From Lachnospiraceae bacterium (GTDB lineage Bacteria; Bacteroidota; Bacteroidia; Bacteroidales; Muribaculaceae): DNA of 39,010 nt. The stretch is taken from NCBI GenBank assembly GCA_023663655.1, contig JAMPGZ010000027.1, forward strand, positions 1 to 39,010, written 5' to 3'. The first letter of the stretch is position 1, and every line of letters starts with the position of its first letter. Positions 17,217-29,617 of this stretch are shown here, piece by piece. Both the position numbers and the translations under genes were made by a program. Below the pieces are notes generated by a model that made no database searches, was not told the origin of the DNA, and saw only the letters and a program-made list of their open reading frames with translations.

Positions 17217-18995
17217 TTATTTGCCTGAAAGTTTCTCCTTGAGAGCGGCAAGTTCCTCGAGGTCGCCGAGGGTAGTGCGTTCGATAGGAGCGTTAAGAGC
17301 AGGCTGCTCTTCTTTCTTGGTCTGACGGCGAGCCTTGCGAGCTTCGTTCTTCTCAGCCTTAGCTTCGTCTTCGAAGATGCGGCTGTGAGAAAGGAAGATG
17401 CGACGGTTGTCCTTGTTGAACTCGATCACCTTGAAGTCGAGCTTCTCGTTGACCTGAGCCTGGCTTCCGTCTTCCTTCACGAGGTGCTTGGGAGTAGCGA
17501 AGCCTTCAACGCCGTGTTCAAGAGCTACTACGCCGCCCTTGTCCTGCATTTCGATGATGGTTCCCGGGTGGATGCTGCCAACAGTGAATACTGATTCGAG
17601 CTCATCCCAAGGATTCTCTTCGAGCTGCTTGTGACCAAGGCTGAGACGACGGTTTTCTTTGTCGATTTCAAGAACCTGAACTTCGATGTCAGCGCCAACC
17701 TGAGTGAATTCAGAGGGGTGCTTGATCTTCTTGGTCCAAGAGAGGTCGCTGATGTGGATAAGACCGTCAACGCCTTCTTCGATTTCAACAAATACACCGA
17801 AGTTGGTGAAGTTGCGCACCTTTGCAGTGTGGCGGCTTCCGATGGGGTATTTGGTGTCGATGTTTTCCCAAGGATCGTTCTTGAGCTGCTTGATGCCGAG
17901 TGACATCTTGCGTTCGTCGCGGTCAAGGGTGAGGATGACAGCTTCAACTTCGTCGCCCACTTTCATGAAGTCCTGAGCTGAGCGGAGGTGCTGTGACCAA
18001 GACATTTCAGAAACGTGGATAAGACCCTCTACGCCGGGAGCGATTTCAACGAATGCGCCGTAGTCAGCCATAACGACAACTTTACCTTTAACCTTGTCGC
18101 CAACCTTGAGGTCGGGGTTAAGGGCATCCCATGGATGGGGCTGAAGTTGCTTAAGACCGAGGGCGATGCGCTTGCGCTCGTCGTCGAAGTCGAGGATAAC
18201 AACGTCGAGTTCCTGATCGAGTTGAACCACTTCTTCGGGGTGGCTTACGCGGCCCCAAGAAAGGTCGGTGATGTGGATAAGACCGTCAACGCCGCCAAGG
18301 TCGATGAACACACCGTAGGTGGTGATGTTCTTAACAACTCCCTTGAGCACCTGACCGCGTTCAAGCTTGGAGATGATCTCCTTCTTCTGCTGTTCAAGTT
18401 CAGCTTCGATGAGAGCCTTGTGTGAAACAACGACGTTCTTGTATTCCTGATTGATTTTCACAACCTTGAATTCCATAGTCTTTCCCACGAAGATATCATA
18501 GTCGCGGATGGGCTTAACATCAATCTGTGAGCCGGGAAGGAATGCTTCGATGCCGAATACGTCGACAATCATACCACCCTTAGTGCGGCACTTGATGTAA
18601 CCCTTGATGATTTCATCGTTTTCAAGAGCTTGGTTGACGCGCTCCCAAGAGCGAGACATACGAGCCTTGCGGTGAGAGAGGATCAGCTGACCTTTCTTAT
18701 CTTCCTGGTTTTCGATGAATACCTCAACAACGTCACCGATCTTGATGTCGGGGTTGTAACGGAATTCATTGACAGGGATAATACCGTCGCTTTTATAACC
18801 GATGTTAACCACAGCCTCACGCTTGTTGAGGGCGATGATGGTACCTTCGATTACTTCTTTGTCTTTTACGGTGTTGAGCGACTCATCATAAGTTTTGGTG
18901 AGTTCTTCGCGGCTCTTGTCACCGGCGGTTTCGCCTTTTTCATAGGCATCCCAATCGAAATCTGCGATTGGAGAATTCTTTAATTCTTCGTTCAT
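17217..18995 (-). CDS. rpsA: 30S ribosomal protein S1
   Basis: A 592-residue translation factor with six S1 RNA-binding domains starting near residues 47, 127, 213, 300, 385 and 470. The third to fifth are most canonical (GVFIDLGGVDGLIHITDLSW, GAFVEIAPGVEGLIHVSEMSW, GVFVEIEEGVDGLIHISDLSW). It helps mRNAs bind the 30S subunit, which matters in Bacteroidetes, whose mRNAs mostly lack Shine-Dalgarno sites. An acidic N-terminal tail and a charged Lys/Glu-rich C-terminal tail are normal for this lineage. A consensus promoter lies upstream. Confidence 0.96.
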   Translation of the reverse strand: MNEELKNSPIADFDWDAYEKGETAGDKSREELTKTYDESLNTVKDKEVIEGTIIALNKREAVVNIGYKSDGIIPVNEFRYNPDIKIGDVVEVFIENQEDKKGQLILSHRKARMSRSWERVNQALENDEIIKGYIKCRTKGGMIVDVFGIEAFLPGSQIDVKPIRDYDIFVGKTMEFKVVKINQEYKNVVVSHKALIEAELEQQKKEIISKLERGQVLKGVVKNITTYGVFIDLGGVDGLIHITDLSWGRVSHPEEVVQLDQELDVVILDFDDERKRIALGLKQLQPHPWDALNPDLKVGDKVKGKVVVMADYGAFVEIAPGVEGLIHVSEMSWSQHLRSAQDFMKVGDEVEAVILTLDRDERKMSLGIKQLKNDPWENIDTKYPIGSRHTAKVRNFTNFGVFVEIEEGVDGLIHISDLSWTKKIKHPSEFTQVGADIEVQVLEIDKENRRLSLGHKQLEENPWDELESVFTVGSIHPGTIIEMQDKGGVVALEHGVEGFATPKHLVKEDGSQAQVNEKLDFKVIEFNKDNRRIFLSHSRIFEDEAKAEKNEARKARRQTKKEEQPALNAPIERTTLGDLEELAALKEKLSGK

Positions 18996-19061
18996 TAAAT
19001 GGTTAGTAAATAAAATTAATTAATCTCGCAAGATGGTTTTCGCTCACCTTCTTGCATTGTG

Positions 19062-19093
19062 CAAAGGTACAACTTAATTTTCACTTGCACAAC
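19062..19093 (-). promoter_or_regulatory. Promoter of rpsA
   Basis: On the minus strand GTTG (19093-19090), a 20-nt spacer and TACCTTTG (19069-19062). The leader to the rpsA ATG is about 60 nt. Confidence 0.7.
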
Positions 19094-19169
19094 ATCTTTT
19101 TGATAGAGCAGGTAATTTTTTTTGCATAATAAAGTGGATGCATATTTTTACGTATTGCACTTATTTTCG

Positions 19170-19177
19170 TAACTTTG
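19170..19177 (+). promoter_or_regulatory. Possible -7 box for tgt
   Basis: TAACTTTG matches the -7 consensus only 9 nt before the ATG at 19187, which would give a nearly leaderless mRNA. No good -33 element is seen. Confidence 0.4.
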
Positions 19178-19186
19178 CTGCTAATT

Positions 19187-20317
19187 ATGGAATTTGAATT
19201 ACAAGCAACCGATAAGCTCTCTAACGCCCGTGCCGGAGTAATAACCACTGACCACGGGAAGATTGAGACTCCTATATTTATGCCGGTGGGTACGCTCGGC
19301 TCCGTAAAAGCAGTTCATCAGCATGAGCTGGAGGAGGATGTGAAGGCTCAGATCATTCTGGGCAACACCTATCATCTGTATTTGCGTCCCGGAACGGAGA
19401 TTCTGAATCAGGCGGGAGGATTGCATAAATTCAACGGCTGGAGCAAGCCTATTCTCACCGACAGCGGCGGATTTCAGGTGTTTTCACTATCGGCAAACCG
19501 CAAGCTCAAGGAGGAGGGCGCTTATTTCCGCAGCCACATTGACGGATCGAAGCATCTTTTCACTCCGGAAAAGGTGGTGGACATACAGCGCATAATCGGC
19601 GCCGACATCATGATGGCGCTCGATGAGTGTCCGTCGGGGAAAGCCGATTATGATTATGCCAAGAAATCGCTCGGGCTCACTCACCGCTGGCTGAAACGCG
19701 GATGGGAGCGCTTTAATTCCACCGAGGGGCTTTACGGGCATCGTCAGGCGTTTTTCCCTATCGTGCAGGGTTGCACCTATCATGACCTGCGCCGCGAATC
19801 GGCTAAGTTCGTTGCCGACCTTGGCGCCGAGGGCAATGCCATAGGCGGACTTGCGGTGGGAGAGCCTGCCGAAGTGATGTATGACATGATCGAGGTGGTG
19901 AACGAGATACTTCCCGCCGATCGTCCGCGCTATCTTATGGGTGTGGGCACTCCGGCAAATATCCTTGAGGCGATAGAGCGCGGAGTGGACATGATGGACT
20001 GCGTGATGCCCACACGAAACGGCAGAAACGGAATGCTCTTCACAGCCCACGGAATAATGAATATGCGCAACAAGAAGTGGGAAAATGACTTTTCGCCGCT
20101 TCAGGAGGATGGACCGAGCTATGTGGACCGCTTCTACAGCAAGGCATACGTGCGGCATCTTTTCGTGGCTCAGGAGATTCTTGCCATGCAGATAGCGTCG
20201 ATTCATAATCTGGCGTTTTACCTGTGGCTTGTGGGCGAGGCTCGCAAGCACATCCTTGCGGGCGATTTCAAGCCGTGGAAGGACGAGATGGTGGAACGCG
20301 TGACCCGAAGACTGTAA
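19187..20317 (+). CDS. tgt: tRNA-guanine transglycosylase
   Basis: A 376-residue enzyme that swaps G34 of tRNAs with GUN anticodons for a queuosine precursor. The catalytic and binding motifs ILTDSGGFQVFS, GADIMMALDECP, GGLAVGEP and CVMPTRNGRNGMLFT are present. The usual zinc-binding CxCxxC just before the YSRAYLRHL-like motif is absent: here the segment reads DGPSYVDRFYSKAYVRHLF. The frame opens at 19175; the ATG at 19187 fits the family start. The permease gene starts 15 nt downstream. Confidence 0.94.
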   Translation: MEFELQATDKLSNARAGVITTDHGKIETPIFMPVGTLGSVKAVHQHELEEDVKAQIILGNTYHLYLRPGTEILNQAGGLHKFNGWSKPILTDSGGFQVFSLSANRKLKEEGAYFRSHIDGSKHLFTPEKVVDIQRIIGADIMMALDECPSGKADYDYAKKSLGLTHRWLKRGWERFNSTEGLYGHRQAFFPIVQGCTYHDLRRESAKFVADLGAEGNAIGGLAVGEPAEVMYDMIEVVNEILPADRPRYLMGVGTPANILEAIERGVDMMDCVMPTRNGRNGMLFTAHGIMNMRNKKWENDFSPLQEDGPSYVDRFYSKAYVRHLFVAQEILAMQIASIHNLAFYLWLVGEARKHILAGDFKPWKDEMVERVTRRL

Positions 20318-20332
20318 AAAAAATGATTGACG

Positions 20333-21406
20333 ATGTTCAAGATTCTTGACCGATATATAATCAAGAAGTTTCTCGGAACTTACGTATTTGCGATCGCGCT
20401 GATTCTTGCGATCACAATAATGTTTGATGTCAACGAGAAGCTCGATTCATTTCTGAAGGCGCCGATAAAGGAGACAATATTTGACTACTTCCTGAATTTC
20501 CTCCCTTATTTCGCCAATCAGTTCAGTCCGCTGTTCACGTTTATCGCCTGTATATTTTTCACATCAAAACTTGCCGACAATTCCGAGATCATAGCGATGC
20601 TGTCGTCGGGCGTGAGCTTCCGCAGGCTCATGCGCCCATATCTTGTGTCGGCGGCGGTGATCGCGTCGTTGTCGTGGGTGCTCAGCGCTTATATAATCCC
20701 TCCGGCAAATGTGAAGCGCATCGAGTACACCAACACCTACGTCAGAAATAAGCGTGTGGATTACGGAAGCAATATCCAAATGATGGTGGCGCCGGGCGAG
20801 ATAGCCTATATCAACCGTTTTGACAACACCACAAGCACCGGCTACCGCTTCTCGCTTGACAAATTTGAAGGCAAGAAACTCGTGTCGCGTCTCACCGCCA
20901 CCTCAATACGCTGGGACTCGCTGAACCAGTGGACGGTGAGAGACTACATGATACGCGACATCAACGGACTTGAAGAGAAAATCACCCGTGGCACCCGTCT
21001 TGACACTATATTGAACATGGAGCCGCGCGATTTCATAATATCGAAGAATGACCAGGAGACAATGACCTCGCCCGAACTTGCCGAGTATATCGACAGTCAG
21101 AAATCGAGAGGATTTGCCAATATCAAGGCTTTTGAGATTGAGAAGGAGCGCAGGGTGGCTATGTGTGCCGCCGCGTTTATCCTCACGGTGATCGGTATGT
21201 CGCTGTCGTCGAAAAAGGTGAAGGGCGGCATGGGCATAAACATCGGCATAGGGCTGGTGTTGAGCTTCGGCTACATCCTGTTCATGACTGTCACATCGAC
21301 ATTTGCCGTGTCGGGCTACACATCCCCGCTTGTGGCGATGTGGATACCCAACATCATCTACACCATCATCGCCGTAGTTCTGTATTTCCGTGCCTCGGCG
21401 GGGTAA
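20333..21406 (+). CDS. LptF/LptG-family permease
   Basis: A 357-residue inner-membrane protein of the YjgP/YjgQ family, whose members extract lipopolysaccharide from the inner membrane as part of the Lpt export complex. It shows an N-terminal helix (YVFAIALILAITIMFDV), a second and third helix (PLFTFIACIFFTSKLAD and LVSAAVIASLSWVLSAYI), a periplasmic domain of about 170 residues, and three C-terminal helices (about residues 278-355). Start at the ATG 20333; a TTG two codons earlier is less likely. The gene follows tgt closely, so the pair is probably co-transcribed. Confidence 0.9.
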   Translation: MFKILDRYIIKKFLGTYVFAIALILAITIMFDVNEKLDSFLKAPIKETIFDYFLNFLPYFANQFSPLFTFIACIFFTSKLADNSEIIAMLSSGVSFRRLMRPYLVSAAVIASLSWVLSAYIIPPANVKRIEYTNTYVRNKRVDYGSNIQMMVAPGEIAYINRFDNTTSTGYRFSLDKFEGKKLVSRLTATSIRWDSLNQWTVRDYMIRDINGLEEKITRGTRLDTILNMEPRDFIISKNDQETMTSPELAEYIDSQKSRGFANIKAFEIEKERRVAMCAAAFILTVIGMSLSSKKVKGGMGINIGIGLVLSFGYILFMTVTSTFAVSGYTSPLVAMWIPNIIYTIIAVVLYFRASAG

Positions 21407-21420
21407 TATAATGGATAATA

Positions 21421-21463
21421 AAAAACAATAAAAGGAGGGCAGTGCCCTCCTTTTATTGTTTTT
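21421..21463. terminator. Bidirectional terminator between converging genes
   Basis: AAAAACAATAAAAGGAGGGC (21421-21440) is fully complementary to 21444-21463, with a 3-nt loop. The A-run and T-run arms serve both the permease gene on the left and the nucleoside phosphorylase operon on the right. Confidence 0.92.
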
Positions 21464-21470
21464 GGGGAGA

Positions 21471-22346
21471 TCAGATGCGGTCGAGGACTGTCTTGATGAG
21501 GTCGCGGATTGCGGTCTTGTAGTTGGGCGAGGCAGTGGTGTTGACACGGTTGGCGATGATTGAACACACGGTCATAGCCTTGTGACCCATGAGCAGCGCG
21601 AGCCCTTCGAGCGGCGCGCTCTCCATCTCGTAGTTGGTGACCGGCTTGCCGTGGTAACGGAATTTTTCAATCTTGGCATTTATGTCGGGGTCGGCGAGCG
21701 GCAGTCGCAGTTCGCGTCCTTGCGGTCCGTAAAATCCTACAGCGCTTATGGTGCATCCACGCACCATGTCATCTCTGCCAATGCGGTCCACGAGTTCTTC
21801 GTCAGATTTAACCACGTAGGGTGCGGCAAGTAGCGGATTCCAGTCCACAGCCTCGCAGAAGGCGCGTTCATAGTCGAGGTCGGCGACACTGTTGCGTCCG
21901 GCATAGTAGTTGAGCACGCCGTCAAATCCGATGGAGTGTGAGGCGATCACCGGAGTGCCGAGTATAAGCTCGGGCTGAAGTGCTCCCGAGGTTCCGATGC
22001 GCACCATGGTGAGTGTGCGGTGATGATCCTTGACCTCGCGGGTATTGAAATCGACGTTGGCAAGGGCATCGAGCTCATTGATCACTATGTCGATATTGTC
22101 GGGTCCTATGCCATGACTCAGGCACATGATGGGTTTTCCTTTATATGTGCCGCCTATTGTGTGAAATTCGCGGGATGACACCTCGAAATCTTTTGTGTCG
22201 AAGAAAGAGGCGACCATGTCGACTCTTCCGGGATCGCCCACAAGGATGATGTTGTCACGCAGTTGTTCGGGCAGGAGGTGGAGATGGAATATTGATCCGT
22301 CAGGATTTATGATCATCTCTGATGATTGAATGATGTGTCGGTCCAT
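21471..22346 (-). CDS. Nucleoside phosphorylase (uridine phosphorylase-like)
   Basis: A 291-residue NP-I family enzyme that splits nucleosides with phosphate into base and (deoxy)ribose-1-phosphate. NIILVGDPGRVD supplies phosphate-binding Gly-Asp-Pro, HGIGPDNIDIVINEL and VRIGTSGALQPELILGTPVIA are family core motifs, and NYEMESAPLEGLALLMG has the ribose-binding Met-Glu. It is the last gene of a minus-strand group headed by an exported 5'-nucleotidase. Uridine preference is a guess; purine nucleosides are also possible. Confidence 0.88.
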   Translation of the reverse strand: MDRHIIQSSEMIINPDGSIFHLHLLPEQLRDNIILVGDPGRVDMVASFFDTKDFEVSSREFHTIGGTYKGKPIMCLSHGIGPDNIDIVINELDALANVDFNTREVKDHHRTLTMVRIGTSGALQPELILGTPVIASHSIGFDGVLNYYAGRNSVADLDYERAFCEAVDWNPLLAAPYVVKSDEELVDRIGRDDMVRGCTISAVGFYGPQGRELRLPLADPDINAKIEKFRYHGKPVTNYEMESAPLEGLALLMGHKAMTVCSIIANRVNTTASPNYKTAIRDLIKTVLDRI

Positions 22347-22403
22347 TGTTTTCGGTTATGAGGTTGTTATTTTCTATTAAACGAAATTTTGGGGCGGCTT
22401 GTT

Positions 22404-23501
22404 TCATGCGAGCCTGTACTTTCCTCCGGGATAAGGGAGAATAAGGTTGTTGAACTCCATGTCGACAAGCAGTGGCATGAGGCGGTGCATGGGGATTCCG
22501 AGCGACACGCACAAGTGGTTGACTGATGATTCGCCTGACTGGCGCAGATGTTCAATTATAGCGTTCTCTTCCGGCGAAAGAGCCAAAGGCAGCTCTTTTT
22601 GCTCACCCTCTGATGCTTTTGCAGTCCAGTTCATCATTTCGATGAGGTCGTTGTCGCTCCCTATGAGAGTGGCTATGTTGGAGGCGATAAGCTTGTTGCA
22701 CCCCGCGCTGTACTTGTCGGAGGTGCGGCCCGGCAAGGCGGCTACATCGCGGTTATATGCGGTGGCGATGCGTGCTGTGACCAGAGCTCCGCCTTTTTCC
22801 GCCGACTCGGCTACCACCAGGCAGTCACACATTCCGGCTACGATGCGATTGCGTGCGAGAAAATTTCCTTTGTGCAACCGGTCCTGCGACATATAGTCGG
22901 TGATAAGGGCGCCCCCCGATTTCACTATCTCCGCCGCCGTGTTGCGGTGGGGAGCGGGATAAATGGTGTTGAGCCCGTGGGCGAGCACGGCTACAGTGGG
23001 CACATTGTTGTGAAGCGATGCGCGGTGGGCGGTGATGTCGATGCCATAGGCGAGCCCGCTCACGATGATAAGGTTGTCGAGCTTCTCCGACAACCCTTTT
23101 ATGAGATTTATCACGAAGTCGATGCCGTAGGGGGTGGCATGGCGAGTACCTACTATCCCCACCACGTGGCTGCTGTTGAAATCACACTCCCCGAGCGAGT
23201 ATAACACCATCGGTGCATCGTCGCAATGCCTTAGCCTTTCGGGATAGCTGCTGTCGTTGAAGCAGGTGACTCCGATGTTGTGGGCGTTGATGAACTCAAG
23301 TTCTTTCCCGGCTTTTTCGAGCAGAGTGTCGCGGTAGTTCCGGTCCAGAATTTTGCTCTTGAAGCCCAGAACGGCGGCAAGCCGTGACTCGGATTCGGCA
23401 AAGAATGTTGATTCATCGCCTATCCGGGAAAGAATTTCTGATGCGAGCTGCGGAGTGATGCCACGCAGAGCTGAGAATGCTATTTTATATATGTCGTGCA
23501 A
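22404..23501 (-). CDS. dprA: DNA processing protein DprA
   Basis: A 365-residue protein that loads RecA onto incoming single-stranded DNA during natural transformation. A helical N-terminal region (LRGITPQLASEILSRIG) precedes the Rossmann-type core: VVGIVGTRHATPYG, VSGLAYGIDITAHRASL and RNRIVAGMCDCLVVAESAEKGGALVTARIA. The C-terminal winged-helix domain (about 300-365, ENAIIEHLRQSGESSVNHLCVSLG) is present. It starts 29 nt after the thioesterase stop. The sequence shows one competence gene only, so transformability is not implied. Confidence 0.95.
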   Translation of the reverse strand: MHDIYKIAFSALRGITPQLASEILSRIGDESTFFAESESRLAAVLGFKSKILDRNYRDTLLEKAGKELEFINAHNIGVTCFNDSSYPERLRHCDDAPMVLYSLGECDFNSSHVVGIVGTRHATPYGIDFVINLIKGLSEKLDNLIIVSGLAYGIDITAHRASLHNNVPTVAVLAHGLNTIYPAPHRNTAAEIVKSGGALITDYMSQDRLHKGNFLARNRIVAGMCDCLVVAESAEKGGALVTARIATAYNRDVAALPGRTSDKYSAGCNKLIASNIATLIGSDNDLIEMMNWTAKASEGEQKELPLALSPEENAIIEHLRQSGESSVNHLCVSLGIPMHRLMPLLVDMEFNNLILPYPGGKYRLA

Positions 23502-23530
23502 GAGAAGAGATATTTGGCTGGGTGAATATG

Positions 23531-23935
23531 CTAAGGAAGGTATTGAGCGAAAGCCTCGGCGATCTCATCGCCGCGTGTCAGACGTCCGTTGAATGTCGAC
23601 ACACATGACACTTTTGCCTTCACGACAAGTTTTCCCGAAGAATTGTAGATGTCCTGAAGGAAGATGAATCGGGCGCCCTCGCGAGAGAGATTGAGGCAGC
23701 TTGTGAATTTTTCACCAAGCCCGAGTGGGGTTTTGTATTCAATCTCCACTTTGCTAAGCACCGGATCGATGCCGCGTTCGTGCATGGAGCGGAATGATGT
23801 GCCGACAAATTCACAGAACTCATGGCGGGTGTGCTCAAGGTAGTGCAGATACACGGCATTGTTGACAATCCCTTCCGAGTCCACTTCATAGTCCCTGACT
23901 TTCATCGGGAGTTCAAATATATATTTCTTTTCCAT
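23531..23935 (-). CDS. Acyl-CoA thioesterase, 4-hydroxybenzoyl-CoA type
   Basis: A 134-residue single hotdog-fold thioesterase that hydrolyses acyl-CoA or acyl-carrier thioesters in the cytosol. The signature VRDYEVDSEGIVNNAVYLHYLEHTRHEF carries the expected catalytic acid (Asp19) before the long helix. The rest alternates in beta-strand fashion. It sits 12 nt after the 5'-nucleotidase gene and 29 nt before dprA. The substrate is not visible. Confidence 0.85.
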   Translation of the reverse strand: MEKKYIFELPMKVRDYEVDSEGIVNNAVYLHYLEHTRHEFCEFVGTSFRSMHERGIDPVLSKVEIEYKTPLGLGEKFTSCLNLSREGARFIFLQDIYNSSGKLVVKAKVSCVSTFNGRLTRGDEIAEAFAQYLP

Positions 23936-23947
23936 GTCGGTGATCTT

Positions 23948-25666
23948 TTATCGAAGTAATCGTGCATCTTTTTCCGCCGCTTTTCGCGCCATATCTTCCG
24001 GAATGAATTTCCATGTGTCGAGTGTGCGGGGCGTGATGTGTCCTTTCTTGCGTATGCGGTCGGCTATGATCGAGCGCAAATCGGTCTTTGAGCGGTAGAT
24101 GATGCGGTCGGCTATGCCCTTGCTGTCGAGTCCCACGCCTTTGGTGAGATGCTCGCCGCCACCGTTGCCACGATATGAGCTGAGTGCCACCTTGTAGGTC
24201 TTATCCATGTCAAACGGAGCGCCGTCAGCCATGCTCATTATTGTGATTTTCTCGCCGGCAGGTTTGGTCACGTCGACCACATATTTTATGCCTGCGGCTG
24301 AGTCGAAATTATAGGGCGGATTCTTTAGCTTGGCTCTCATGGCTTCTCCGGCGCCCTGTTGCTCTTTGAACAGAAGCAGATGGTCGTTTTCGTCTTTCAT
24401 GCGGTCGGTCCACAATGAATAGGAAAACTCGAGGTAGTCCTTTATTTCTTTTCCGGTGAGCTCCATCACATACAGGGCGTTCTCATATTTGTAAAGGCTG
24501 AAGAGGTCGCTCATGTGGATTGTCCCCGCCTTGATTGAGGCGTTGGTTGATATCGGAGCGGCAAATGATATGTCGGCTCCTGTGCTCTCAAGCTGAAATT
24601 CATGGATGAGGTCGATGAGTTTGGAGGGTCCGAACAGGACATCGTCAGATGTGATGGAATCGGTGAAAAATCCCACCGGCTCCGACACATATTCACGCAC
24701 CGTGGCGATCTGAGGGGAGAATGTCGACATGAATTCATTGTCGGGTTGGTACTTGTTGACATCGGCAAGCGTGCCGGTGATCGACTTGTCGGTGACTTTC
24801 CCTTTTTCGTCAAGGCTTACTTTTATTGTCACATCGGTGATTACCTGCCCGGTGTTTGCCGGGTTCATCAGCAGCACGCTGTCACCGGCTATGTTCTCGA
24901 TCTTCTTGTTTTCCACGAGATGGTCGTGTCCGAACAGAATCAGATCAAATCCGGGGATATTGCGCGCGATCTCCATGCTCGGGTTCTCCTTGATACCTGA
25001 CAGCACGGTGCCCGATTTTCCGGCATGGAAAAGCCCCACGATGATGTCGGGATTCTCCTTTGATTTTATTATCGGAATCCATTTGCGGGCGCTCTCTTCC
25101 ATATCGACGAAAGTGAGCCCTTCCCACAGGTCTTCGGACAGCCACACGGGGATTGCCGGAGTTATCATGCCGAGCACTGCTATTTTCACACCGTCGCGTT
25201 CAAACACCTTGTAAGGCGTGAAATGCGGTTCGCCCGTGTTTTTGTCGAGGATATTGGCGCCGAGTATCGGCATCTTGCAGTCGGCGACCCAGCGGTCGAG
25301 TGTGCGTCGTCCTGTCTCCACATCGTGGTTGCCCACGTTTCCTGCGTCATATCCCATGTAGTTCATCACCTGCGCGGTGATATGGGGCGACAGAGTGTCG
25401 ACATAGTTATAATAATAAACCGACGGCTGTCCCTGCAATATGTCGCCGTTGTCAAGCAGAATCACATTGTCGCCATATTTTCCCCTGTAGTCCTTAACCA
25501 ACTTGGCGATGCGCGACATCCCCCCTTTTGCCGGAGTCATTGTGATGAAATTCTCCGGAAAGAGGTTACCATGAATATCACTGGTCTGTAGTATTTTTAT
25601 TTCAACGTCCTTAGCCGGGCACACTGCCGGCAGGAGGCATAAAAGAGCTGCTGCAAATATTTTCAT
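23948..25666 (-). CDS. Exported 5'-nucleotidase / bifunctional metallophosphoesterase
   Basis: A 572-residue UshA-like enzyme that dephosphorylates nucleotides outside the cytoplasm. A signal peptide (KIFAAALLCLLPAVCPA) is followed by the dinuclear metal centre motifs LQTSDIHGNLFP (Asp30, His32), LLDNGDILQGQPSVYY, GNVGNHDVETG and LILFGHDHLVENK. The C-terminal 5'-nucleotidase domain (about 325-530) binds substrate (MELTGKEIKDYLEFS, SYRGNGGGEHLTKG). The frame opens seven codons earlier, but the Met at 25666 begins the signal. With the nucleoside phosphorylase of the same gene group it suggests scavenging of external nucleotides. Confidence 0.92.
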   Translation of the reverse strand: MKIFAAALLCLLPAVCPAKDVEIKILQTSDIHGNLFPENFITMTPAKGGMSRIAKLVKDYRGKYGDNVILLDNGDILQGQPSVYYYNYVDTLSPHITAQVMNYMGYDAGNVGNHDVETGRRTLDRWVADCKMPILGANILDKNTGEPHFTPYKVFERDGVKIAVLGMITPAIPVWLSEDLWEGLTFVDMEESARKWIPIIKSKENPDIIVGLFHAGKSGTVLSGIKENPSMEIARNIPGFDLILFGHDHLVENKKIENIAGDSVLLMNPANTGQVITDVTIKVSLDEKGKVTDKSITGTLADVNKYQPDNEFMSTFSPQIATVREYVSEPVGFFTDSITSDDVLFGPSKLIDLIHEFQLESTGADISFAAPISTNASIKAGTIHMSDLFSLYKYENALYVMELTGKEIKDYLEFSYSLWTDRMKDENDHLLLFKEQQGAGEAMRAKLKNPPYNFDSAAGIKYVVDVTKPAGEKITIMSMADGAPFDMDKTYKVALSSYRGNGGGEHLTKGVGLDSKGIADRIIYRSKTDLRSIIADRIRKKGHITPRTLDTWKFIPEDMARKAAEKDARLLR

Positions 25667-25756
25667 CGTATGATACTTTAGCACCATAAAGTTAATACAA
25701 ATTTAGTTAACAGAAAAATATTGACGCCTCAGTTTCAATTCCCCCGCAACGTGGCC

Positions 25757-25960
25757 CCGCCACAACGTAGGGTCGCCACCTGTGGCGACCTCATCAACGC
25801 AACCGACCCACCACAACGCAGCCTCGCCACCTGTGGCGACCGAGTCAACACAGCAACCCCGCCACAACGTAGCCTCACCACCTGTGGCGACCTCATCAAC
25901 ACAGCAACCCCGCCACAACGTAACCTCGCCACCTGTGGCGACCGAGTCAACGAAGCAGCA
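25757..25960. repeat. Four tandem 51-bp repeats with a 20-bp perfect palindrome
   Basis: Copies start at 25757, 25808, 25859 and 25910. Each contains CCACAACG near its start and a form of GGTCGCCACCTGTGGCGACC in the middle (perfect in the first copy, one arm varied to CTCGCC or CTCACC in the others). The inner CGCCACCTGTGGCG is kept in copies 1, 2 and 4. Copy 4 runs into the long direct repeat. Since 51 is a multiple of 3, frames stay open here, but the translations look like repeat artefacts. Confidence 0.88.
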
Positions 25961-26290
25961 AATTAAGGATGGTGTTACAAAATTGAGCACAAGCACCGGA
26001 GGTGTGTCGTCATGGTTAACCCCACATGAGCAACGCGAGTGTGGGGCTGTTTAGCCATACCTATATATGAGCTTCGGAGAAGCGATGTAATGATATCTCA
26101 AGCTCAGGCGCATAGAGCTATTTGTGGTAGACATTGAAGATGATTCTTTCAGAATCACAACAACCCGATTCACTCCCTCCGTACGTCTCGCCTGCGGCTC
26201 GGCGTACGGCTACCGACAGATGTTTCCTTACGGAAACACAGGCACTTGCACACTCCATATCGACCCCTCTTGCCGTCCTACAGACGGCAA
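25914..26290 (+). repeat. Long direct repeat, copy A (left border of the LRR cassette)
   Basis: This segment matches 29275-29617 in the same orientation. About 100 bp (25948-26046) is identical by eye to 29311-29410. A diverged middle (26047-26110) follows, then about 175 bp (26114-26288) match with a few substitutions and one 2-bp indel. It holds the hairpins CCCCACA/TGTGGGG, GATTCT-TTC-AGAATC, GTTTCC-TTAC-GGAAAC and GCCGTC-CTACA-GACGGC. Confidence 0.85.
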
Positions 26291-26510
26291 AACACGCCTG
26301 AAAGGCGATGCCTATGGTTAGCCGGGTACAGCGAGCCTTTGGCGAGCTGTGCCCGGTTGGATCAAGATGTTGACGCACTCTGCAAAGAGTGCCCCTACGG
26401 CACAGGGCATCTCTTCTCAGAGATGAAATTTATTCGATAATTACCGGGCACAATTCGCCTACGGCTCATTGTACCCGGCTATGCGTAAGCACTGCCTTTC
26501 AGGCATCACA
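26020..26510. repeat. Dense array of short hairpins with small loops
   Basis: At least ten perfect or near-perfect stems lie in under 500 bp. Examples are GCTTC-GGA-GAAGC (26071-26083), GATTCT-TTC-AGAATC (26142-26156), CGCCT-GAA-AGGCG (26295-26307), GCACTCT-GCAA-AGAGTGC (26375-26392), CATCTCT-TCTC-AGAGATG (26408-26425) and GCCT-TTC-AGGC (26494-26504). Three larger stems share an inner GCC-NNN-GGC hairpin (26179-26209, 26322-26356, 26444-26478). Stem sequences differ while loops on one strand or the other are GNA or GNRA-like. No gene is supported in this stretch. Confidence 0.75.
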
Positions 26511-26526
26511 CCGTTAAAACACAACA

Positions 26527-26556
26527 GGAGCGGTGGGCATTTGCACCCACCGCTCC
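26527..26556 (-). terminator. Terminator of the LRR gene
   Basis: GGAGCGGTGGG (26527-26537) pairs with CCCACCGCTCC (26546-26556) across an 8-nt loop, 25 nt after the stop codon. On the minus strand it is followed by a T-rich stretch. Confidence 0.75.
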
Positions 26557-26580
26557 CGGATTATCGTAACGCCGGATGCA

Positions 26581-28359
26581 CTATCTCACCATCACCTTTA
26601 TGGTTTTGCCGGCGGCACGCACGGCGTAGATGCCCGGAGCGAGGTTGTCGGCACGACCGGCACCGCGATACACCAATTGTCCGCTCATGGAGTAAACCTC
26701 CATCTCGGCGCAACCCTCGGCTACGACAGCACCATCAACCACCTTCACCTCAACACCATCCCCGGCAACATCCTCAACACCTGCCGAGTAGTCAATCTCC
26801 TCGATATTCCAGAAATTCCTCCACGGATACACTTTCTCGTATACAGCGGTACAACCCTTAGGCACATACAGCACCGCAATATTAATCACAATTTCCGGGA
26901 ACTCCGTGCGGCACTCAATCGGCACTGTCCATTGGCAATAAACCGATTTAAGCGATTTACATCCGCCGAACGCAGAGGAACCAATCGAAGTCACAGAATT
27001 TGGAATCGTCACGCTCGTCAATTTGCGACAGTCATAGAACGCCATGTCGCCAATCGATGTCACAGAGTTGCCAATCGTCACGCTCGTCAAGCCGCGACAG
27101 CCCTCGAACGCATATTCGCCAATCTTGGTTACCGAGTTTGGAATAGCCACGCTCGTCAAGCCGCGACAGCCCTCGAACGCATAGTCGTCAATCTTGGTCA
27201 CCGAATTTGGAATCGTCACGCTTGTCAAGCCACTACAATTATAGAACGTATATCTGCCAATCGAGGTTACCGAATTCGGGATCGTCACGCTTGTCAAGCC
27301 GCTACAGTTCTGGAATGACCAAATGTATGTCACCGAGCTGGGTATCACAATTTCTCCCTTTTTGCCTTCAGGACAAATTATCAACATAGTTTTATCTTTG
27401 GAATAAAGAATCCCTGACTCGGAAGAATATTCCTGATTTTCTGCATCAACATTGATTTCTGTCAAGCCGCTACAACCATCGAAAGCAGTGCCGCCAATCG
27501 AGGTAACCGAGTTTGGAATCGTCACGCTTGTCAAGCCGCTACAACCATAGAACGCAGAGAAGCCAATCGAGGTCACCGAATTAGGAATCGTAACGCTCGT
27601 CAATTTGCTACAGCGTTCGAACGCAGAGTAGCCAATCGAGGTAACGGAGTTTCCAATAGTCACGCTCGTCAAGCCGCTACAACCCTCGAACGCATATTCG
27701 CCAATCGAGGTAACCGAATTTGGGATCGTCACACTTGTCAAGCCCCTACAACCATAGAACGCATATTCGCCAATCGAGGTAACCGAGTTTCCAATCGTCA
27801 CACTTGTCAAGCCGCTACAGCCCTCGAACGCATCCTTGCCAATCGATGTCACCGAATTTGGGATTGTCACGCTTGTCAAGCCCCTACAACCATAGAACGC
27901 GGAAAAGCCAATCGAGGTAACCGAATTGGGTATCGTCACGCTCGTCAAGCCGCTACATTTATAGAACACACAGGAGCCCATCGAGGTAACCGAATTTGGG
28001 ATTGTCACGCTCGTCAAGCCGCTACAGACCTCGAACGCATAGGAGCCAATCGAGGTAATTGAGTTCGGTATCGTCACACTTGTCAAGCCGCTACATGCCC
28101 TGAACGCACTGTAGCCAATCGAGGTAACGGTATATGTTGTGGAGTTATAAACTATTTTCTTAGGAATCTCCAAATTCCCCTTAACATAGTTTTTATTGCC
28201 ATTATAATATTCGCTAATATAAGTGACTTCCACCGTGCAATCCTCCTTCGACAAATAATTGTAGCACAATCCATCCACCTTGAAATCGTAGGCATCAGCG
28301 GTGGATGACACAGCCATAATTATGGCAACGAGAAATATTTTTAAGATATTAGTTTTCAT
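26581..28359 (-). CDS. Exported BspA-like leucine-rich-repeat protein with T9SS-type tail
   Basis: A 592-residue surface or secreted protein. A signal peptide (LKIFLVAIIMAVSSTADA) precedes about 16 LRR_5/BspA-type repeats of 23 residues with core GLTSVTIPNSVTSIG and a following x-x-AF-x-x-C. One longer insert (DAENQEYSSESGILYSKDK) interrupts the series. The last about 70 residues (VYSMSGQLVYRG and LAPGIYAVRAAGKTIKVMV) match the type IX secretion sorting tail. The repeats are near-identical in DNA (69-bp units), so copy number may change by recombination. The start overlaps the upstream 87-residue gene by 11 nt, suggesting coupled translation. Adhesion to host or other microbes is the family expectation. 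Confidence 0.9.
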   Translation of the reverse strand: MKTNILKIFLVAIIMAVSSTADAYDFKVDGLCYNYLSKEDCTVEVTYISEYYNGNKNYVKGNLEIPKKIVYNSTTYTVTSIGYSAFRACSGLTSVTIPNSITSIGSYAFEVCSGLTSVTIPNSVTSMGSCVFYKCSGLTSVTIPNSVTSIGFSAFYGCRGLTSVTIPNSVTSIGKDAFEGCSGLTSVTIGNSVTSIGEYAFYGCRGLTSVTIPNSVTSIGEYAFEGCSGLTSVTIGNSVTSIGYSAFERCSKLTSVTIPNSVTSIGFSAFYGCSGLTSVTIPNSVTSIGGTAFDGCSGLTEINVDAENQEYSSESGILYSKDKTMLIICPEGKKGEIVIPSSVTYIWSFQNCSGLTSVTIPNSVTSIGRYTFYNCSGLTSVTIPNSVTKIDDYAFEGCRGLTSVAIPNSVTKIGEYAFEGCRGLTSVTIGNSVTSIGDMAFYDCRKLTSVTIPNSVTSIGSSAFGGCKSLKSVYCQWTVPIECRTEFPEIVINIAVLYVPKGCTAVYEKVYPWRNFWNIEEIDYSAGVEDVAGDGVEVKVVDGAVVAEGCAEMEVYSMSGQLVYRGAGRADNLAPGIYAVRAAGKTIKVMVR

Positions 28360-28612
28360 TTGCGTTTTTATTTGTTTTTCTACTTAGATATGATTTTAAT
28401 GCGTTTTTGATATGTTTATCGGGGTGTTGCATAGGATGAGTTTTCCCGGGTTTTGTGTTGCACTCTTCTTTCAAATACTTATTCCAGCATTTACGATAAT
28501 CACCGGGATATGTGGCAATGAATTTGTCAAGAAAATCCTTTTCCACATAGTTTTCCGGCAACAGGGAGAGTACATGTGCAACCTTCTCGTCGACTTTAAG
28601 AATGACACTCAT
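28349..28612 (-). CDS. Small unknown protein (87 aa), middle gene of the LRR operon
   Basis: I do not recognise this protein. It is soluble with no signal peptide. The first part is helical (VDEKVAHVLSLLPENYVEKDFLDKFI), then an aromatic and lysine-rich part (YPGDYRKCWNKYLKEE) and a basic C-terminus (KNALKSYLSRKTNKN). Its ATG overlaps the stop of the upstream 84-residue gene as ATGA, and its own stop lies 11 nt inside the LRR gene. This tight linkage argues it is real and made with both neighbours. A nucleic-acid-binding or regulatory role would fit the basic tail but is unproven. Confidence 0.65.
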   Translation of the reverse strand: MSVILKVDEKVAHVLSLLPENYVEKDFLDKFIATYPGDYRKCWNKYLKEECNTKPGKTHPMQHPDKHIKNALKSYLSRKTNKNANEN

Positions 28613-28863
28613 GACGCAAATTCAATCGTTACAATTGACTCTACCAACACTCCGACTTCATTCATACAAGAATAGTCTTCCTTCATAGCAATATTTGCCA
28701 ACATCTCTCTGGTTTTTCCGGTTGGTCGAATTACCATCAACAAATCATTGCCCGGTTTGGCTTTCCTTAGGAAAACTCCTTCATAAACTCCTGCGGTTGT
28801 CTCAATTGTACAAAACTTATTTTCCTTGTCTTGCACCGTTTTACAATAGATGTCTTTATTCAT
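28609..28863 (-). CDS. Small unknown protein (84 aa), first gene of the LRR operon
   Basis: I do not recognise this protein. It appears beta-rich: FCTIETTAGVYEGVFLRKAKPG, then LLMVIRPTGKTREMLANIAM, and VGVLVESIVTIEFAS at the end. A small barrel (Sm- or SH3-like) is a loose guess. The frame is open to a TTG at 28911, but the Met at 28863 gives a compact protein. It follows a promoter and a roughly 370-nt leader that contains a predicted structured RNA, and overlaps the next gene by ATGA. Confidence 0.62.
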   Translation of the reverse strand: MNKDIYCKTVQDKENKFCTIETTAGVYEGVFLRKAKPGNDLLMVIRPTGKTREMLANIAMKEDYSCMNEVGVLVESIVTIEFAS

Positions 28864-28972
28864 AATGTTTTCATAGCTTCGGGACCTCCTCGTCGGCTTA
28901 CTATATTGCACAAAAAAAGCGCAAGGTCTGTACTTGTTGCCCGTCCCACGTTCTGAGGCCCTGGAATTGCCC

Positions 28973-29113
28973 GGATTAGTAGAACGAGCAACGATGCAGA
29001 GGCCTCACGCTGAATATGGATATGCCACACGTGACGATGCTCACACATCGCCGCATGGCTGAATATACATATCCGCTAAAGGCATCTACCGTTGCTGCAT
29101 CCTTGACTAATCC
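28973..29113 (-). ncRNA. Predicted rod-like structured RNA in the leader of the LRR operon
   Basis: Nested complementary segments are visible (plus-strand positions): 28973-28979 with 29107-29113 (GGATTAG/CTAATCC), 28987-28993 with 29090-29096 (AGCAACG/CGTTGCT), ATGC at 28994-28997 with GCAT at 29082-29085, 29018-29024 with 29068-29074 (GGATATG/CATATCC), and a terminal hairpin CGATG/CATCG (29035-29050). This makes one long rod with a central bubble. On the minus strand it follows a consensus promoter and is followed by a T7 run around 28911. It could be a separate RNA (6S-like in outline) or a regulatory leader. No known Rfam family is claimed. Confidence 0.55.
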
Positions 29114-29236
29114 AATGAAATTTTCCAGGTTTCAGAACGTCAAGAAAGAGCGTCGAGTAAACGCTTCTTAATCATGTTGTCGCTTTCCCGCCCCACATAA
29201 TCCCACAACCGGGCCTCCGCGTGCGGTCAGCAACCG

Positions 29237-29269
29237 CAAAGATAATAAATTATTTTAAAACACCGCAAC
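29237..29269 (-). promoter_or_regulatory. Promoter of the leader RNA and LRR operon
   Basis: On the minus strand GTTG (29269-29266), a 21-nt spacer and TATCTTTG (29244-29237) match the Bacteroidetes consensus. Transcription would start near 29230, about 370 nt before the first small gene. Confidence 0.65.
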
Positions 29270-29274
29270 AATCC

Positions 29275-29617
29275 ACCCACAACGTACGGTCGCCACCTGT
29301 GGCGACCTCGTCAACGAAGCAGCAAATTAAGGATGGTGTTACAAAATTGAGCACAAGCACCGGAGGTGTGTCGTCATGGTTAACCCCACATGAGCAACGC
29401 GAGTGTGGGGTTAACAACAATATCGCGGATGTGCCGCTCCTACAGAGCTATTTGTGGCAGACATTGAAGATGATTCTTTCAGAATCGCAACAACCCGATT
29501 CACCTCCTCCGTACGTCTCGCCTGCGGCTCGGCGCACGGCTACCCACAGATGTTTCCTTACGGAAACACAGGCACTTGCACACTCCATATCGACCTCTTG
29601 CCGTCCTACAGACGGCA
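29275..29617 (+). repeat. Long direct repeat, copy B (right border of the LRR cassette)
   Basis: This segment matches 25914-26290 in the same orientation and includes one palindrome unit (GGTCGCCACCTGTGGCGACC at 29288-29307) and the same series of hairpins. In place of the diverged middle of copy A it carries a GCTC-CTACA-GAGC hairpin (29436-29448). It is not a gene. Confidence 0.85.

Follow-up and report, generated by a model that had tools for sequence, protein, structure and literature searches.

Known systems and the locus

Gut Bacteroidales heavily control and diversify their surface proteins, and invertible promoters as well as capsule antiterminators are among the surface switches of these bacteria. 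In the JUMPstart/ops systems with RfaH, UpxY or LoaP, a single conserved 5′ leader precedes many unrelated surface or exported genes, while riboswitch-type and other attenuators have, ahead of the first gene, alternative pairings that exclude each other and include a hairpin with a U-tract. Here, we analyze a leader RNA and the leucine-rich repeat (LRR) protein unit behind it in a DNA stretch of 39,010 nucleotides (the window), which represents the whole contig C19 (JAMPGZ010000027.1) of a Muribaculaceae genome of 2.9 Mb in 45 contigs (GCA_023663655.1). On balance, we favor the explanation that a conserved RNA attenuator heads an accessory operon for a surface protein, that repeats were added at its borders later and that a recombined second copy lies on contig C42.

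The leader resembles the JUMPstart/ops-type systems in the diversity of the genes it precedes, and also here a glycosyltransferase gene is among them. Unlike these elements, it is ~320 nt long with a strong structure and has a terminator-like hairpin of its own at the end. With the riboswitch-type attenuators it shares overlapping pairings that exclude each other and a candidate terminator, a hairpin plus U-tract with weak covariation, before the first gene; its cargo, however, is functionally diverse and not confined to a single pathway. The encoded protein is similar to the BspA-like LRR_5 surface proteins in its LRR_5 repeats and its export-like N terminus; it differs in that its gene stands behind the leader and small ORFs without family match.

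The leader RNA and its structure

Between the two border repeats there is a single unit on the minus strand, made up of a promoter-like box, the leader, two small open reading frames (ORFs) and the LRR gene. This agrees with the preliminary description, which had reported exactly one enclosed transcription unit with promoter, structured leader, two small unknown genes, LRR surface protein and terminator. In the order of transcription, its parts are:

29237..29244, minus strand: -7 promoter box TATCTTTG, identified by its motif
28912..29229, minus strand: leader RNA, a conserved rod with covarying stems, then a terminator-like hairpin and U-tract (28918-28912); the 5′ end is an estimate from the -7 box
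28609..28863, minus strand: ORF of 84 aa with ATG start, no match in Pfam, NCBIfam or PADLOC
28349..28612, minus strand: ORF of 87 aa, not in the C42 copy, no match in Pfam, NCBIfam or PADLOC
26581..28359, minus strand: exported-looking LRR_5 (BspA-type) protein of 592 aa (PF13306, E 2.2e-143)
26512..26571, minus strand: imperfect hairpin directly after the LRR gene, 73% complementary, candidate terminator

The leader forms a rod-shaped RNA with a minimum free energy of -146.1 kcal/mol (z -8.5) for the window copy. The consensus of 49 distinct aligned leaders contains 54 pairs, 23 of them with double changes, whereby covariation was counted on 43 of the 54 pairs with the outermost 11 excluded. 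The rod is paired in 97.6% of 2093 cells compared to 84.9% in shuffled and 38.5-44.0% in slid alignments, and 278 cells are double-changed compared to 21-48 in the slid versions; for both measures none of 500 shuffles reaches the observed value. The compensatory changes thus exceed those of the shuffles and the structure of the leader RNA is real. Two of its stems (columns 31-35/252-256 and 63-66/225-228) vary freely in sequence and stay paired, making a ligand site in these two stems unlikely.

The sequence GUGGGA (columns 257-262) closes the rod or can instead pair with UCUCAC (columns 283-288) ahead of the U-tract, and the overlap of the two helices is clear. As these pairings exclude each other and one of them is terminator-like, the leader is most likely a transcription attenuator, i.e., a conditional terminator. 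The terminator-like end lies ~50 nt ahead of the first gene. By raw count, 46 of the 52 leaders aligned carry the promoter motif TAnnTT(T/C)G.

Genes behind the leader

The leader precedes diverse, mostly exported-looking proteins. The comparison covers 50 leaders (the 49 aligned ones and that of the window), several from the own genome, of which 48 have enough downstream DNA; the loci are mostly top DNA hits of the window leader, towards which they are thereby biased, and most end ~1.5 kb downstream. The first ORF with an ATG start follows the leader at a distance of 37-71 nt in 45 of the 48 loci, and none fitted in the other three (sought from about -20 to 140 nt). LRR-type proteins, as judged by pattern, are encoded in 13 loci, in five of them by the first gene, and at 40 loci at least one gene encodes a hydrophobic N-terminal stretch by a crude rule. 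In the own genome, the cargo comprises LRR proteins, lipoproteins, a DnaK-like operon and a glycosyltransferase operon (mostly assigned by eye); the first glycosyltransferase and a DUF6530 gene are backed by Pfam.

Two groups of loci were observed alongside. Glycosyltransferase genes follow the leader at L299:690-1469 (Pfam match) and at L071 (by eye), resembling a polysaccharide locus. Moreover, a similar pair of exported-looking genes, one of ~160 aa followed by a longer one, stands behind the leader at L054, L076, L077 and L331 (by eye); these loci come from three species within the genus and from one genome of a different family.

Spread of the leader and comparison with known RNAs

A DNA search with window positions 28870-29262 found the leader in 11 of the 14 genus genomes and in 220 of 297 sampled Muribaculaceae genomes, covering 27 of 30 genera. 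A sequence-only model of the first 92 conserved positions of the leader (model R1) detected it in 13 of the 14 genus genomes, with 10 copies in the own genome. In the order Bacteroidales, model R1 matched 52 of 393 genomes from 22 families (E below 1e-9 for 12 genomes, weak E values only for several), and in the class it matched seven of 395 genomes, five within the order and two outside with weak E values (6e-4 and 7e-4); these order and class searches used stricter filters, which may miss weak copies. A strict pattern is fitted by 16 of 28 loci from the order search, four of them from the own family. Loose rules recognize the promoter motif together with the terminator-like end in 15 of these 16 loci, and the remaining one (L312) is broken off inside.

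In Rfam, window positions 28580-29320 gave no match up to E 5, and at the gathering score only tRNAs were found in the window. No description of the leader was found in the literature, as far as titles, the openings of abstracts and passages of Weinberg 2010 (PMC2864571) and of PMC8040213 are concerned, and an unnamed entry in supplementary material is possible.

History of the unit at the GH77 site

The leader-LRR unit is ancestral at its site beside a GH77 gene, and the repeats are a later, lineage-specific addition. GH77 matches are present in all 14 genus genomes including the own, and stretches of 4.5-7.2 kb adjoining GH77 on its LRR side were compared in 12 of the 13 relatives (in the excluded G013, GH77 is split over contigs). 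The three closest relatives, G006, G007 and G008, with GH77 genes 92% identical, carry the leader within ~0.3 kb after GH77, followed by an LRR gene, while the border repeats have no match at E<=0.001 in any of the 12 GH77-side stretches, these three included. Since these sister species have leader and LRR gene at the orthologous place without a repeat match, the unit predates the repeats. The small genes vary at this site, with an ORF of 57 aa in G006 and no separate one in G007 and G008. In a set of 80 GH77 loci taken from named genomes, seven have a match to the leader model, including the three sisters; in a more distant relative (L244) the leader lies ~0.5 kb after GH77. As a side observation, the leader at the orthologous site of G008 (L103:1149-1379) lacks positions 177-322 and the switch may therefore be fixed there.

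A site looped out by a crossover between the repeats was not seen for C19, and no strain with such a site was available for comparison.

The second unit on contig C42

The same architecture recurs on contig C42, where two border repeats enclose a leader and the gene of a different, 624-aa LRR protein; both small ORFs are absent there. It is flanked by genes for gtrA and an SDF symporter. The symporter gene was found in six of eight relatives searched and its surroundings were compared in five, G012 being left out. In four of these five (G008, G006, G005 and G003), 29-32 bp separate the aligned coding ends of the two flanking genes; next to the G002 symporter gene, no gtrA was detected. The border repeats have no match in any of the five orthologous stretches, including the empty sites. 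The C42 unit therefore represents a gain of ~4.1 kb including repeats, seen so far in the own genome only, and among the genomes compared the repeats at these sites and the second copy are confined to the own genome. At the C42 junctions, no obvious target-site duplication was found by eye.

The units on C19 and C42 show a patchwork of divergence along their length:

Repeat side: 143/149 identical (96%)
Leader: 393/393 identical
LRR gene, 5′ part ahead of the repeats: 195/231 (84%)
LRR repeats: 68%
Next 83 nt: 72%
Last 72 codons and 3′ hairpin: 262/283 (93%)
Module B: 214/221 (97%)
Core: 194/205 (95%)
Module A: missing from C42

Near-identical ends surround a divergent LRR body, which strongly suggests recombination between the two units, and this patchwork is best explained by conversion at the ends or by an exchanged body. 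In a protein-guided alignment, 73 of 177 fourfold-degenerate sites differ in codons 1-520, a value that is likely too high because LRR repeats may be paired out of register. The first 78 codons are not affected by this register problem but offer few sites, and their contrast (7/23) with the last 72 codons (5/41) is modest. A stronger contrast is given by the leader: with the window copy, its orthologues in G006 and G007 share only 88% and 85% identity, and for this reason constraint alone hardly freezes the leader sequence. The copies of the border core are all 90-96% alike; a grouping by side was sought among them and none was clear. The route of duplication and the exchange tracts are putative, and surface variation, antigenic or for phage escape, may be an outcome of such recombination.

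The border repeats

The direct repeats that border the unit are mosaics of dispersed palindromic elements. The parts concerned, to which no strand was assigned, are:

25755..25957: tandem array of ~4 units of 51 bp, palindrome CGCCACCTGTGGCG, from self-comparison
25914..26290: left border repeat, composed of a core (~135 nt), module A (26114-26268) and a palindromic tail of 24 nt, from alignment
26296..26504: module B, a long quasi-palindrome, from self-comparison and genome matches
29275..29617: right border repeat with core, module A and 24-nt tail in the same orientation as the left one, from alignment

Two repeats in the same orientation with a block identical over about 100 bp had been noticed before, and both features are borne out by alignment. 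The repeats share blocks of 150 nt (25897-26046 and 29261-29410, 93% identical), 155 nt (26114-26268 and 29444-29598, 95%) and 24 nt (26266-26289 and 29594-29617, 100%), with a fully identical run of 101 nt; as a single alignment, left and right repeat are 85% identical (E 1.1e-119). They do not occur at this unit alone. The right repeat has 59 matches in the own genome, and the left border with module B (25900-26510) has 107, mostly partial, matches, which shows their dispersal. At E<=0.001, positions 25900-26510 have matches in five of the 14 genus genomes, namely the own, G006 (27), G007 (29), G008 (20) and G012 (3), and zero matches in the other nine; among the matches listed for these four relatives, the hits are short and cover parts of the query. 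Four of the five best core matches of the right repeat adjoin the two LRR units.

The 25755-25957 array contains three overlapping 101-nt copies at a spacing of 51 nt, two of which are 81% and 87% identical to the reference. The RNA fold of module B (26290-26510) amounts to -123.5 kcal/mol; its copies are 97% identical at C42 and 98% at contig C5, and related copies flank a Y1 transposase gene on contig C11. On C5 (L022:4711-5957), a pile of the same modules, flanked by a UPF0102 gene and an OstA-like gene, includes a module B copy (98%) and a core copy (95%) and no ORF of at least 120 aa.

The own genome encodes nine genes with a Y1_Tnp domain, and four of them have module A or B on both sides in inverted orientation: module A flanks L300, L302 and L304 and module B flanks L301, whereby one of these eight flanking matches, downstream of L304, has only 21 nt. 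L303 and L307 have short or more distant module matches only, and alongside L305, L306 and L308 no module match was found. Module A forms a hairpin with a GTAG head in the window and in the flanks of L300, L302 and L304 (by eye). The preliminary description had stated that there is no transposase or integrase. None is indeed present among the three ORFs of the unit; however, this is true just locally because likely transposases, the Y1 genes, exist elsewhere in the genome.

The modules resemble the repetitive extragenic palindromic (REP) elements of the REP-associated tyrosine transposases (RAYTs) and the GTAG-tagged repeats in being GTAG-headed palindromes (by eye), inverted around Y1 genes and dispersed. 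Unlike in REP/RAYT systems, the four Y1 transposases scored of the nine fit IS200/IS605 in NCBIfam, all four above the cut-off of the model and one by 0.2 bits. For the REP_Tyr_transpos model (NF047646; cut-off 80 bits), three of the four are below the cut-off and one has no match. As NCBIfam favors IS200/IS605 and the REP model remains below its cut-off, the repeats are REP-like elements linked to IS200/IS605-type Y1 transposases and not proven RAYT/REP pairs. Passages of Nunvar 2010 (PMC2817692) assign the RAYTs meeting the criteria of that study to gammaproteobacteria only, and passages of Di Nocera 2013 (PMC3733652) place GTAG repeats in Proteobacteria, Cyanobacteria, Chloroflexi and the Planctomycetes-Verrucomicrobia-Chlamydiae group, and not in Bacteroidetes.

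Alternative explanations and proposed mechanism

The preliminary description regarded the direct repeats as homology arms of a recombination cassette, by which the unit could be lost, duplicated or exchanged by crossover. A second bordered unit with a different LRR body, the empty C42 sites in relatives and the C5 pile of modules without a longer ORF would fit, and the expectation that the same composite brackets different cargo was confirmed at C42. However, the empty sites in relatives do not retain the single repeat copy that a crossover would leave, three sister species hold the unit without a repeat match, and the fully identical tract between the two units is the leader and not the repeats. 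Hence, recombination between bordered, diverged units is retained from this proposal, whereas the repeats did not found the cassette, and as a whole we consider it unlikely. The association might also be due to chance if palindromic elements pile up in intergenic DNA, where any gene may fall between two of them. The 107 border-region matches in a genome of 2.9 Mb, while nine of 14 genus genomes have none, and the modules flanking transposase genes speak for this, but the position of four of the five best core matches next to the two LRR units and the similar junctions between repeat and unit at C19 and C42 (by eye) speak against it, and a purely accidental arrangement seems less likely to us. 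Finally, the leader might be an independent small RNA or a protein-binding antitermination RNA of the RfaH/ops or LoaP type, with the downstream gene merely co-transcribed. Its own promoter box and terminator-like end and the occurrence of one leader family ahead of very different cargo are compatible with this. The tight spacing of leader and first gene in nearly all loci argues for an action in cis, and we regard this alternative as less likely.

In the favored explanation, an operon under a conserved attenuator with later repeats and a recombined second copy, the operon plan would consist of promoter, ~320-nt leader RNA, interchangeable small genes and a BspA-type LRR protein. The leader would act as a cis-regulatory RNA across Bacteroidales, an attenuator switched by some factor. 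The unit is old at the GH77 site, the mosaics of palindromic elements linked to IS200/IS605-type Y1 transposases arrived later, and a bordered copy would then have reached the second site on C42. Homologous exchange in the leader and at the 3′ end, and perhaps also in the repeats, would keep the ends alike while the LRR bodies diverge.

Several points weigh against this explanation. The terminator-like stem is far less supported than the rod: it has 6 bp with G-U pairs, is paired in 84.7% of the cells and has a single pair with double changes, and the two helices of the proposed switch together are paired in 90.0% of the cells compared to 89.3% in shuffled alignments, a value reached by 18 of 500 shuffles. 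Also for the rod, the occurrence of further pair types, the weakest of five measures, is reached by 33 of 500 shuffles; moreover, the shuffles take no account of relatedness, and the alignment used for counting is also the one that yielded the structure. No switching factor or ligand was found, and no search for a NusG-type or antiterminator gene was made. Strong constraint could account for part of the identity of the leaders, and a possible out-of-register LRR alignment inflates the divergence of the body. The co-transport of both borders rests on shared junctions judged by eye, and many of the named relatives are metagenome assemblies, while the own genome is split into its 45 contigs.

A wider possibility, which we regard as speculative, is that throughout Bacteroidales the leader acts as a trans-controlled termination switch, joining several to about ten unrelated operons for exported proteins into one regulon per genome, and that, its copies being nearly identical, it serves in addition as a homology arm for exchanging surface-protein bodies and small orphan genes under a constant promoter-plus-switch. 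A structured leader common to unrelated exported-protein operons in many families would add a further layer to the control of surface proteins. The LRR locus represents a worked case in which a surface gene was copied and probably recombined in one lineage beside freshly spread palindromic repeats.

Further observations on the locus

The LRR_5 domain of the 592-aa protein scores 470.9 bits compared to a gathering score of 27.7, and the LRR unit corresponds to a 69-bp DNA repeat within its gene. The export-like N terminus of this protein was recognized by eye and by a crude hydrophobicity rule.

The block 17217-25687, from an S1 gene to a 5′-nucleotidase gene, is inverted compared to G006, where it extends over two contigs, and to G008, and the inversion breakpoint at 25.7 kb abuts the repeat array. 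That the border repeats made this inversion (17.2-25.7 kb) was considered and dropped as unsupported, as neither a unit nor a border copy is present near the end at 16.7-17.2 kb.

An ORF of 100 aa with GTG start, reaching to 28911, was initially considered, with its N-terminal part as conserved protein, and rejected as some of its matches were to the overlapped leader region; because this ORF enters the leader region, 28863 is the better start. The 84-aa ORF has a relative in G012 with 39% identity. Eight small ORFs between leader and LRR gene were scanned and gave no Pfam match at E 0.01. Small, unrelated-looking ORFs frequently occupy this position, in the window (28349-28863) as well as at L049, L053, L075, L078, L080 and L081.

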